Positions 27,028-44,514 of a stretch of 49,926 nucleotides of DNA are shown in pieces (the stretch's first letter is position 1; the number at the start of each line of letters is the position of its first letter). The DNA lies in contig CACXFV010000032.1 in NCBI GenBank assembly GCA_902767015.1, positions 1 through 49,926 of the forward strand. Direction: 5' to 3'. Under the pieces are notes generated by a model. It had not been told where the DNA came from. It saw nothing but the letters and a program-made list of their open reading frames with translations, and ran no database searches. The translations under genes and the position numbers were made by a program. Source of the stretch: an uncultured Lachnospiraceae bacterium. Its GTDB lineage: Bacteria > Bacillota > Clostridia > Lachnospirales > Lachnospiraceae.

Positions 27028-29121
27028 TTAACCCTCTTTCAATATATCTTCATAGTATGCTCTTAATATCTCACCTACACTCCATGCCTGTGCATACGTT
27101 CCTCTGGAAATATTCGGCTCATTTCCGTCAAATATCTCCGCAATCTGTCCCACACATCCGTCTCTTAAGTGATCCTTAACCGGTTCCATCAGAAGTCTGG
27201 CATATCTGAGAACATCGTCATTATCATACCCCTGCATATCGCAGGTTTTACCTGCGATACTGCCACCAATCGGCAGGTTTGAAAGTTTACTTTCAAACTT
27301 ATACCCCTGCATATCGCAGGTTTTTACATAAGCAGTAACCAGTGCTCCCAGAGGGAATGCCCATGCTGTTCCCTGATGATATGCTGCGTCCCTGTCATGA
27401 AGTTTGCCCTTATAATACGGCTGATATTCATCATTTTCCTTATCTAATGTTCTAAGACCATATGTCGCATATAATTCACTTATAACCGTATCAACAACCG
27501 CTTTTGCCTTCTTGTCGTCTAACAAGTCAAAGGGCAGTGACACAGCATAAATCTGATTCGGTCGTATCTTATCATCCTTATCCTGACCATCCACCACGTC
27601 ATACAGACAATTCTTGTCTTCATTCCAAAATTCTCTCACAAATGACTGCTTTACTTTGTCTGCCATAGCGCCATACTCTTCTGATGTCTTTGCGTAACTG
27701 CTCACTTGACCAAGCCTGCTGCCAAGGTTCTCCATAATCCTGAGCGCATTATACCATAACGCATTAATTTCCACCGGCTTTCCATGTCTCGGGGTAACCA
27801 CCCATGTTCCCACTCTCACATCCATCCATGTTACCTGATCATAACCGCCTCCCGCATGAATCAGTCCGTCCTTATCCATATATATTGAAAAATCCGTGCC
27901 AGCGGAATAGAAATGTATAATCTCCTCTAACTTTGGGTATATCTCCTTCTTAATAAAAGCATAATCCTCCTCCCCGCCTGTATATTCAAGATACTTATAT
28001 ACCGCATAAAAATACCACATAGAGGCATCTGCGGTATTATACAGAGGCTCTAATCCCTCGTCAGGAAACATATTAGGAACCATACCATTCTTAACGTACA
28101 TGGCAAAGGATTTTAAGATTCCCCTGGCATCTTCCCACCTTTTTGTCACCAGAGCAAGTCCCGTAAAGGCAATCATGGTGTCCCTGCCCCAGTCCGTAAA
28201 CCACGGATATCCTGCCATAATCGTCTTATTCTTTGTTGACTGTCTCTGTACAATAAACTGGTCAGCCGCCTGCACCAATGACAGTGCAAAATCGTCTCTG
28301 ATACCACTGTTTGCCTTAAGAGTTCTGATTCGCTCACGATTTTTTTCGATAATCTCGAAGGCATCTTTATTGAATTTTTTCTCCACAGAACAGATAAGGG
28401 AAAGTCTCTTATGCTCATACGGCTTCAGCTTTATCCTGATACGGTAAGGCGTGTAGCTGTTCACCACTGCTTCTCCCCCCGTAGCTATCTCAGTCTGAAG
28501 AATTTCATCACTGTCATATTTTTCTTCATTTTTTTCAAACTTTCCACTGCTTGTATATAATTTAATCGTTAAATCTTTATTCTTTTTAGGAACGAGCTTT
28601 AACAGTTTTTTTGTCTCAAATTCTTCCTTAAATTTCAGTTCATTTCTCTCCACCCTCTGATTGTGATCCCTGTAGGTGAGAAATGGTGTGATAAAAAACT
28701 CTGCCTCCTTTGAACCGTTCATGATATCATATCCGATGGCAAGTGTATTCTTCTCCCATTCAAAACTGAGTGTCTTTGTGATAAACGTTCCTTCTGCCTG
28801 ATAGACAAACTGTGGCAGTTCATCATAAATAAATCTTTGCAGATAAATCTGCCCCTCATCATTGATATTTCCGGGTCTTTGGTTTGTGGCAAAAGAGTAA
28901 TTCCTCTCTCCGATTCTGATGCTTTCATCCGTTTTATTCAATATCGCATATCTCTCAACCGGCGCATGCAGACTTGCCACAAGATATGCGTGATGCTTTC
29001 TGGCTCTTGCATTGATAATGCTTCCTCCGCCATATCCCCCTATCCCATTTGTGATAACCCATTCTCTCTCTATTCCCTCATTGAAAGTTTTCCAATATCC
29101 TTTTCCAAATTCTAATTTCAT
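27028..29121 (-). CDS. Glycogen debranching enzyme (amylo-alpha-1,6-glucosidase) with an in-frame repeat insertion
   Basis: A 697-residue two-domain protein. The N-terminal beta-sandwich opens with EREWVITNGIGGYGGGSIIN. The C-terminal (alpha/alpha)6 barrel has WFTDWGRDTMIAFTGLAL, YDQVTWMDVRVGTWVVTPRH and YHQGTAWAFPLGALVTAYVK. It should remove alpha-1,6 branches from glycogen or related glucans in the cytoplasm. After VTAYVK about 25-33 residues are foreign: TCDMQGY occurs twice, 25 residues apart, around a Ser/Gly-rich linker. This corresponds to the palindromic repeat at 27226-27324. The barrel then resumes with NDDVLRYARLLMEPVKDHL, so the frame is kept. Without the insertion the length is normal. 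Confidence 0.93.
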   Translation of the reverse strand: MKLEFGKGYWKTFNEGIEREWVITNGIGGYGGGSIINARARKHHAYLVASLHAPVERYAILNKTDESIRIGERNYSFATNQRPGNINDEGQIYLQRFIYDELPQFVYQAEGTFITKTLSFEWEKNTLAIGYDIMNGSKEAEFFITPFLTYRDHNQRVERNELKFKEEFETKKLLKLVPKKNKDLTIKLYTSSGKFEKNEEKYDSDEILQTEIATGGEAVVNSYTPYRIRIKLKPYEHKRLSLICSVEKKFNKDAFEIIEKNRERIRTLKANSGIRDDFALSLVQAADQFIVQRQSTKNKTIMAGYPWFTDWGRDTMIAFTGLALVTKRWEDARGILKSFAMYVKNGMVPNMFPDEGLEPLYNTADASMWYFYAVYKYLEYTGGEEDYAFIKKEIYPKLEEIIHFYSAGTDFSIYMDKDGLIHAGGGYDQVTWMDVRVGTWVVTPRHGKPVEINALWYNALRIMENLGSRLGQVSSYAKTSEEYGAMADKVKQSFVREFWNEDKNCLYDVVDGQDKDDKIRPNQIYAVSLPFDLLDDKKAKAVVDTVISELYATYGLRTLDKENDEYQPYYKGKLHDRDAAYHQGTAWAFPLGALVTAYVKTCDMQGYKFESKLSNLPIGGSIAGKTCDMQGYDNDDVLRYARLLMEPVKDHLRDGCVGQIAEIFDGNEPNISRGTYAQAWSVGEILRAYYEDILKEG
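27226..27324. repeat. 75-bp palindromic repeat unit inside the debranching enzyme gene
   Basis: A 24-bp word beginning ATACCCCTGCATATCGCAGG occurs at 27226-27249 and again at 27301-27324, exactly 75 bases (25 codons) apart. Between them are nested inverted repeats. ACCTGCGATA (27250-27259) pairs with TATCGCAGGT (27312-27321). CTGCC pairs with GGCAG (27260-27276). GTTTGAAAG pairs with CTTTCAAAC around TTTA (27277-27298). The first arm can also pair with 27237-27246 around a TTT loop. The folded unit would be a three-way, cloverleaf-like structure on DNA or RNA. It stays open in the host gene's frame. Confidence 0.85.
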
Positions 29122-43434: not shown

Positions 43435-44433
43435 CTAGTTCTCCTCCCAGTCATAACTGTCTGTTTCATCATCCGATTCCGGAAAATAATCATCTAAATC
43501 CAAATCGACCTCCTCTGCCTCTTCCTTGACATTGTCCGGAACACCTGACAATTTAACGCCATCATTGGCAAGCATATTCATCTCAAATACCAAAGTTTTA
43601 ATATCAACCTCTGTATCATCAACTTCTCCGTTCATGGTAAAGGAAATCTTAGTCTGCACCGGCAGGAATGTATCCTTGTCATAACATATCTGACCTCTGC
43701 AATCCAGATTTAACTGTTGAAATGCTTCTTCTGCTTCCTGTAATGCATCCTCCATCTCTTCTTCATCCACATAATCTTCGCTGGTTCTGATTAACTCCAT
43801 GATACTGTCATTGTTAATCTCCATGGTAATCACATAGCACTCTTTCTTATTGACTATCTTCGTCATATCTTCCAGCTTCAGAATGCTTTCTACCTTTTTC
43901 CAGTCTTCCTCTGTAATCTCATTAAATGCATCCTTACTTTCCTCTAGTATCTCCTCTAAATCATCAAACACATCTGTGATATAAGAGGCGTCCATCGAAT
44001 CTGTCACCCAGTTGCCCTTCTCATCCCCTTTATTCACATTGACATATACATTCAATTCGCCATCTTCTGTTTCTCCGCAGGCATTGGCAGAATATTTTCC
44101 CGACAAAGTGGTTCCTGATGTTGTGACACTATAATCCACTGCTCCTGATAAGTCAAAAGCCGGCTCCTCCTTCACCGCTTTGCCTGTCAGCGACACGCTT
44201 CCTTTTGCGCTTAGGCTTTGACCATCAACTTTTACCGTAGCATCCGCCTCTCCCTTAATATCTAACTGTAAATCCTCAATATCACTAGTGGCATCCGCTA
44301 CATTTTCAAATAGCTCTGCCAGTTCAATCTCTACCTTAGAGGTCTTCTTTGTTTCACTGCTTTTACTTCCACATCCTGCAAGAAGTGATACCGACAAAGC
44401 TGCTACTAATAGGTATGCAAATTTCTTTTTCAT
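43435..44433 (-). CDS. Lipoprotein, DUF6612-like
   Basis: A 332-residue exported lipoprotein. The signal peptide MKKKFAYLLVAALSVSLLAG ends at a lipobox LLAGC, where Cys21 would be lipidated. The mature part has alternating beta-strands (LDIKGEADATVKVDGQSLSA) like the LolA/LppX-fold proteins grouped as DUF6612 in Clostridia. It ends in a very acidic tail (EEVDLDLDDYFPESDDETDS). The function is unknown; binding of a hydrophobic ligand is a fold-based guess. It is transcribed alone, with a promoter at 44515-44544 and a terminator at 43398. Confidence 0.85.
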   Translation of the reverse strand: MKKKFAYLLVAALSVSLLAGCGSKSSETKKTSKVEIELAELFENVADATSDIEDLQLDIKGEADATVKVDGQSLSAKGSVSLTGKAVKEEPAFDLSGAVDYSVTTSGTTLSGKYSANACGETEDGELNVYVNVNKGDEKGNWVTDSMDASYITDVFDDLEEILEESKDAFNEITEEDWKKVESILKLEDMTKIVNKKECYVITMEINNDSIMELIRTSEDYVDEEEMEDALQEAEEAFQQLNLDCRGQICYDKDTFLPVQTKISFTMNGEVDDTEVDIKTLVFEMNMLANDGVKLSGVPDNVKEEAEEVDLDLDDYFPESDDETDSYDWEEN

Positions 44434-44514
44434 TTTGCATCAATCCTTTCTCGAAAATACTTATTAATTCATTTACTTTTACATAATCCTGTCAAATAAA
44501 ATCAGGCTATCTTT

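Follow-up and report, generated by a model that had tools for sequence, protein, structure and literature searches.

A small hairpin repeat of Lachnospiraceae found before start codons and in frame within genes, including a glycogen debranching enzyme gene

How has a gene for a glycogen debranching enzyme come to carry, in frame, a palindromic unit of 75 bp? The question is raised by a stretch of 49,926 nucleotides from an uncultured Lachnospiraceae bacterium (contig CACXFV010000032.1 of assembly GCA_902767015.1), which is referred to here as the window. A preliminary description had proposed that the unit is a mobile coding repeat similar to the Rickettsia palindromic elements. In the present analysis the observation behind this proposal was confirmed and its interpretation was partly supported. 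We consider that the unit is probably a copy of a small, non-autonomous mobile element that targets ATG-like sequence, whose Shine-Dalgarno (SD) tail takes over at the starts of genes and whose copies inside genes are tolerated. The probability of this explanation as a whole is roughly two in three.

The unit in the debranching enzyme gene

The host gene encodes a glycogen debranching enzyme (amylo-alpha-1,6-glucosidase) of 697 amino acids on the minus strand (27028..29121; Pfam GDE_C, E 3e-129, and GDE_N, E 3e-54). As had been described, a 24-bp word occurs identically at 27226-27249 and 27301-27324, at a spacing of 75, and the unit is accommodated in frame with neither a stop codon nor a frameshift, the open reading frame being intact. 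The predicted fold contains all three stems (10, 9 and 5 bp). It does not reproduce the cloverleaf shape attributed to them: the hairpins follow one another in a row, and the sense unit has two. The fold energy of the segment is -39.1 kcal/mol (z = -7.9), and none of 200 shuffled sequences was as stable.

The full element copy, read in frame as KFESKLSNLPIGGSIAGKTCDMQGY, lies at 27223..27299 of the minus strand (covariance model R1, 87.6 bits, E 2e-17). In the order of the sense (minus) strand, the site consists of AAGTTTGAAAGTAAACTTTCAAAC, a linker, GGTGGCAGTATCGCAGGTAAAACCTGCGATATGC and AGGGGTATGAT, followed by AATGAC. Hairpin 1 (GTTTGAAAGT AA ACTTTCAAAC) occupies 27277..27298 and hairpin 2 (GGCAGTATCGCAGGTAAAACCTGCGATATGC) occupies 27234..27264, both on the minus strand and both delimited by the predicted fold and by pair counts. 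The tail GGGG (27229..27232, minus strand) has the position that the SD sequence has in start-adjacent copies; here it is intragenic and is read as codons. The right flank AATGAC (27217..27222, minus strand) is read as native, the corresponding uninserted site being AAT GAC in congener G007 and AAT GAT in congener G004. Upstream of the full copy in the gene is a remnant of 24 nt (27301..27324, minus strand) that corresponds to the 3' end of a second copy, and the array in the window is composed of one full unit with these last 24 nt of another copy ahead of it. The remnant may be the first copy to have been inserted, its 5' part having been lost between GTAAAA words. The window holds a single strong copy; of the next model matches, two overlap this copy (E 0.014 and E 0.02) and one lies at 44367-44436 (E 0.65).

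The pairing of the two hairpins of the sense unit is kept in several copies despite changes on both sides. In an alignment of 20 copies, standard pairs were found in 96.4% of cells, changes on both sides were seen in 26 cells (shuffles, 8.2), and none of 500 shuffles reached the covariation score. Two of the five covariation measures were not above the shuffles, namely the pairs with changes on both sides (5 vs 4.2) and the further pair types (11 vs 12.8), and the structure was borne in mind when the alignment was read. No terminal inverted repeats are formed by the two ends of the consensus, AGTTTG and GGTATAA, neither being an inverted copy of the other.

Homologues of the enzyme had been expected to have a short loop at this place. 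The unit is absent from all eight orthologues of the same genus, and six of these have the expected short loop; the remaining two (L090 in G006 and L091 in G008) carry unrelated long inserts at the same loop. These inserts indicate that the debranching-enzyme loop tolerates changes in length. The best PDB alignments of the enzyme cover profile positions 265-377 or 299-379 and end short of the loop. As part of the best explanation, sequence comparison suggests that the window copy was inserted in a loop of variable length and is tolerated there, beside the remnant of another copy.

Dispersal and copies inside genes

The whole-genome search proposed in the preliminary description was carried out with the 99-nt segment. 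It gave 24 blastn matches in the source genome at E <= 0.001, which shows that the unit is dispersed, and no match in the remaining 39 genomes of a set of 40 relatives, eight of the 39 being congeners. Because it recurs at other loci and is missing from the eight congeneric orthologues, the 75-bp unit is a dispersed element and not native sequence. A native origin had been tied to a loop conserved in homologues and to a DNA unit occurring nowhere else, and this was not found.

A covariance model built from 20 copies gave 43 matches in the source genome at E <= 0.01, some of which are opposite-strand echoes. It was positive in 10 of 200 family genomes and in 6 of 295 genomes of an order-wide draw, four of these six belonging to one genus of another family; G004 is the only congener named in the lists of these two surveys (without a match), the other congeners being excluded by blastn only. 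When genome_contigs, described as containing 84,980 species genomes, was scanned with a pattern, 21 stretches were obtained, all in records titled Lachnospiraceae or Parablautia, the latter being a genus of Lachnospiraceae. The pattern was absent from viral_contigs, and no plasmid match was obtained for the one copy searched. A known RNA family was rejected, as six loci had no Rfam match at E up to 1. The host range that forms part of the best explanation is some Lachnospiraceae and one genus of another family in the same order.

Three loci of genome G066 (L126, L127 and L128) have identical 77-nt copies on different contigs, which may be a sign of recent spread. Two congeners, G396 (L238) and G255 (L247), carry the element at what appears to be a shared locus, with similar flanks and a similar protein start; this suggests that the insertion predates the split of these two genomes. 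Two records from human faecal samples, MT836421.1 (L267) and MT839524.1 (L268), match one copy and have the element directly before an ATG; they are titled 'Bacteriophage sp.', are unverified and unannotated, and could be phage or bacterial contigs alike.

Among the 30 best loci of the source genome, four copies are located inside long open frames and are read in the same way (debranching enzyme, prolyl-tRNA synthetase, LicD and DprA). The three copies in addition to that of the window support the earlier proposal of a repeat that inserts in frame, as does the dispersal. A coding role as the main account was not supported: the element is not chiefly coding, since in-frame copies account for only these 4 of 30 loci and about half of the copies examined are directly before starts and end in an SD sequence. 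The linker between the hairpins is 10 nt long in the three full-length in-gene copies of the source genome and 9 nt long in six of the seven start or intergenic copies compared, the seventh not being read by the pattern. This linker, one base longer, keeps the FESKLSNLPIGGSIAGKTCDMQGY frame open. Another possible in-frame copy was flagged at L126 of G066.

Comparison with relatives was feasible for three of the in-gene sites; the LicD copy, which has no adjacent ATG, gave no clear orthologue for an empty-site comparison. The copy in the prolyl-tRNA synthetase gene (proS), located after seven codons, is absent from all seven orthologues found, one congener having given no match. DprA was compared with eight relatives, of which four were displayed; all four are without a 59-residue segment, which includes the element and tandem repeats containing AATGA. 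These repeats (L069) are about 15 nt long, resemble AATGAATATATATC and lie downstream of the element copy within the segment. The uninserted debranching-enzyme site reads AAA AAT GAC GAA in G007, AAG AAT GAT GAG in G004 and GAA AAT GAA GAA in G002, so that AATGA, matching the AAT GAC that follows the insert in the window, is present in three of the eight relatives and not in the other five. The uninserted proS site reads GCA AAT GAA AAG in two of seven relatives (G006 and G008), matching the AAT GAA AAG that follows the insert; this junction is less sure because the proS gene of the source genome has further extra codons. Since the adjoining AATGA is native at these two in-gene sites in some relatives, the element may target ATG-like sequence. 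Such a preference would explain both the start-adjacent and the in-gene copies, because the ATGs inside genes are not start codons.

Position before start codons and insertion at rplR

The position of the copies relative to start codons was evaluated in 89 stretches from five genomes (29 of the 30 best loci of the source genome, 20 stretches from G131, 17 each from G066 and G203, and 6 from G175). They gave 106 model matches; 97 were left after the removal of nine rows, of which two were duplicates and seven were weak echoes of the palindromes on the opposite strand. This set is a selection of model matches, and tandem neighbours overlapping by 1-2 bases are partly unreported by the program. 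In 52 of 97 copies the 3' end is followed at +1 to +3 by an ATG that opens a frame of 60 codons or more; for positions drawn at random from these stretches, the number was 415 of 17,842. When +0 was included, the numbers were 53 of 97 on the sense strand and 0 of 97 on the antisense strand (about 2% by chance), and 49 of the 53 offsets were +1 or +2. Thirteen of the 97 copies were also in the alignment from which the model was built, and the model ends before the ATG.

A second set comprised nine genomes (G396, G255, G370, G407, G048, G197, G123, G151 and G155) and 42 matches, one of which was dropped as an opposite-strand echo; none of its stretches has sequences from the model alignment. Here the numbers were 21 of 41 sense and 0 of 41 antisense, against a null of 371 of 18,695 (2.0%). 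The element is thus start-adjacent in about half of its copies, with a strong bias in orientation. The other half lack an adjoining start that opens 60 codons; of the 15 copies in G396, just 3 have one. Of the non-start copies, 18 of 41 have an ATG at +0 to +3 compared with 10% of random positions in the same stretches, which were the sole control for composition, and 11 of the remaining 23 are followed by another repeat that opens with a TGAAA-type motif. An SD-like word was present to the left of the element in 16 of 30 start copies without a preceding repeat (null 22%).

The 3' end of the element is typically AGGAGGTRTAA, which is an SD sequence. SD strength was taken as the duplex energy with the anti-SD octamer, and this energy was lower at starts than elsewhere in the source genome (p = 0.009), in G131 (p = 0.017), in G066 (p = 0.005) and in G203 (p = 0.03, with two non-start copies only). 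No difference was seen in G197 (p = 0.65, with one non-start copy), and four genomes had one class only. In a stratified permutation, none of 5,000 rearrangements reached the observed difference. In the genus of the other family, all nine start copies were at -9.7 kcal/mol or lower, with tails such as AAGGAGGG and ATGGGGGT, and all 16 non-start copies were at -6.9 kcal/mol or higher, many with ATGGGTAT. Within single genomes, start copies and non-start copies thus have SD sequences of different strength, which indicates selection or sorting on the tail; the pattern would fit selection after insertion or a sorted subfamily.

Insertion of the element as a unit was observed in Parablautia intestinalis (L037), where it lies between rplF and rplR. 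When this stretch was compared with 200 family genomes, the alignments ended near position 520 and several resumed at 585. In all 22 displayed relatives (25 loci taken), the SD sequence and the ATG are close together without an element between them. Three of these loci (L198, L203 and L205) read AAGGAGAGTGTAAAAATGGTTA at the empty site, and comparison with them defines an exact insert of 75 nt after GTGTAA and before AAATGG. The native SD sequence of rplR is left upstream of the inserted element. No target-site duplication was detected, because the two junctions of 30 copies were no more alike than shuffled pairs (p = 0.31 and 0.11). For the leader of the HI0933-like gene at L055, none of seven congeners has the element, and the leaders are too diverged to fix the junction.

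Origin of the element and its relation to known repeats

The favored explanation, in which a mobile element targets ATG-like sequence, may be outlined as follows. A trans-acting enzyme that recognizes the hairpins and ATG-like targets would move the element, which would enter in a single orientation immediately upstream of ATG-like sequence, in many cases AATGA; this step is supported but not proven. At true starts the element would separate the native SD sequence from the ATG, as its position shows, and its own 3' end would replace that sequence to keep the gene translated, a takeover suggested by the SD strength. Inside genes, an insert of 75 nt, the length found where an exact empty site is available, would add about 25 codons, and the variant with the longer linker would keep one frame open. 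Tolerance would then act as a filter on insertions, and repeated insertion beside the same ATG-like site might produce tandem and mixed arrays, as an alternative to the growth by alternative pairing suggested in the preliminary description.

Mobilization by an enzyme of the RAYT/IS200 type was rejected: Y1_Tnp (PF01797), the family sought, is absent from the copy-rich genomes G000, G131, G066 and G175, although drafts may miss genes. It is present in G203, G048, G197 and three genomes without known copies, and the search for this family yielded no mobilizing enzyme.

A second repeat of the same plan was observed in G131, consisting of a ATTGAAAATTTAAATTTTCAAT hairpin, a linker, a GCCCGC/GCGGGC hairpin and a GATGGGAGCAA tail that is SD-like. 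In 139-nt arrays, seen in G131 and in S29_Bin8-type records, copies of this repeat and of the element alternate; the repeat is located at L106:900-1500 and in the right flanks of L112, L113, L114, L115 and L124. From its occurrence in G131, the design would seem to be shared by several sequence families. A different palindromic repeat, ending in TTTGTGCCGCCTGCGGCGGCATG, is directly upstream of the element at L049, L053 and L056 of the source genome, and a similar one is found at L013.

The loop of the enzyme might have been native, or might have arisen by local duplication within the gene, and the other, unrelated long inserts that two members of the same genus have there are in keeping with this idea. 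It is nevertheless ruled out, to near certainty, by the orthologues and by dispersal, since the element residues occur in none of the eight congeneric orthologues and the DNA unit recurs at other loci. It is more conceivable, and still improbable, that the element is a host regulatory RNA of 5' leaders, that is, a translational regulon spread by recombination with accidental copies inside genes. Two hairpins with covariation and a fixed position before start codons would be expected of such an RNA. However, its distribution is patchy (10 of 200 family genomes, and absent by blastn from all 39 other relatives), it forms tandem and mixed arrays, it has in-frame copies in unrelated enzymes, and six loci gave no Rfam match.

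The strongest of the rivals, which we regard as unlikely, is that insertion is blind to ATG and that selection retains those copies that restore a ribosome-binding site or an open frame. The difference in SD strength between start and non-start copies within genomes is consistent with such selection, and so is the finding that half of the copies are elsewhere. Blind insertion does not readily account for the narrow spacing, because harmless sites exist anywhere upstream of the native SD sequence and yet 49 of 53 offsets are +1 or +2. Nor does it account for the excess of ATG beside non-start copies (18 of 41 vs 10%) or for the native AATGA at two in-gene sites in some relatives.

The Rickettsia palindromic elements, to which the unit had been likened, are small palindromic sequences found between genes and in frame within genes, including those of conserved enzymes, and have lengths of 105-146 bp and 12-bp terminal inverted repeats according to the available parts of PMC2229807 and PMC10969869. 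The likeness holds for in-frame insertion that is absent from orthologues (debranching enzyme 8/8, proS 7/7, DprA 4/4 displayed). It does not hold for length and ends: set against these published descriptions of the Rickettsia elements, the present one is 75 nt long with two internal hairpins and ends that are not inverted repeats, and about half of its copies are directly before starts and SD-ended. The start-associated sequences (SAS and ESAS) of Cluster K mycobacteriophages, as presented in the accessible portions of PMC3203893, contain an SD sequence a few bases before starts in nearly always one orientation; SAS has a 13-bp consensus (GGGATAGGAGCCC) in phage genomes, some copies have inverted repeats upstream, and the authors argue against RNA hairpins. 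The element resembles them in having its SD sequence just before starts in one orientation (53/97 and 21/41 sense, 0/97 and 0/41 antisense). It differs from them in that its consensus lacks GGGATAGGAGCCC and in being a 75-nt bacterial unit whose hairpins covary, with an exact empty site and with copies inside genes. On the features tested, and as far as these sources extend, the element is a member of neither group, and these two are its nearest kinds.

MITEs and other small repeats (ERIC/RU-1, YPAL/RU-2, RU-3, RUP and Correia/NEMIS) are short, non-autonomous and dispersed, some being intragenic with open frames, in the sections available of PMC2229807, PMC2759123 and PMC10969869. Unlike several of them, the element has no detected terminal inverted repeats or target duplications, and those sections describe no start adjacency combined with an own SD sequence. 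REP sequences of the GTAG and CGTC families are short, palindromic and present in many copies, some intragenic and most downstream of genes, and the GTAG type is linked to RAYT transposases (PMC3733652, in part). The element differs from what is given there in having copies at starts and in the absence of Y1_Tnp from four copy-rich genomes. No earlier description of the element was found in the portions of the open-licence literature searched, PMC4351075 included. It is possible, at a little under even odds, that it represents a new class of element that targets the translation start, characterized by recognition of ATG-like sequence, sense insertion between the SD sequence and the start codon, a replacement ribosome-binding site, a frame-neutral length and mistargeting into coding sequence; it would in this way spread while genes stay readable.

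If the proposed explanation is true, a mobile sequence has replaced the initiation regions of many genes of some gut bacteria, including that of ribosomal protein L18 in Parablautia intestinalis. In-frame protein insertions, which are best known from Rickettsia, could then arise as a by-product of targeting to ATG-like sequence. To the question of how a palindromic repeat comes to be translated, this offers a testable answer, in which the target motif, the orientation and a length that is a multiple of three are supplied by the element. For annotation, it means that a stretch of protein like KFESKLSNLPIGGSIAGKTCDMQGY would be recognized as element sequence.
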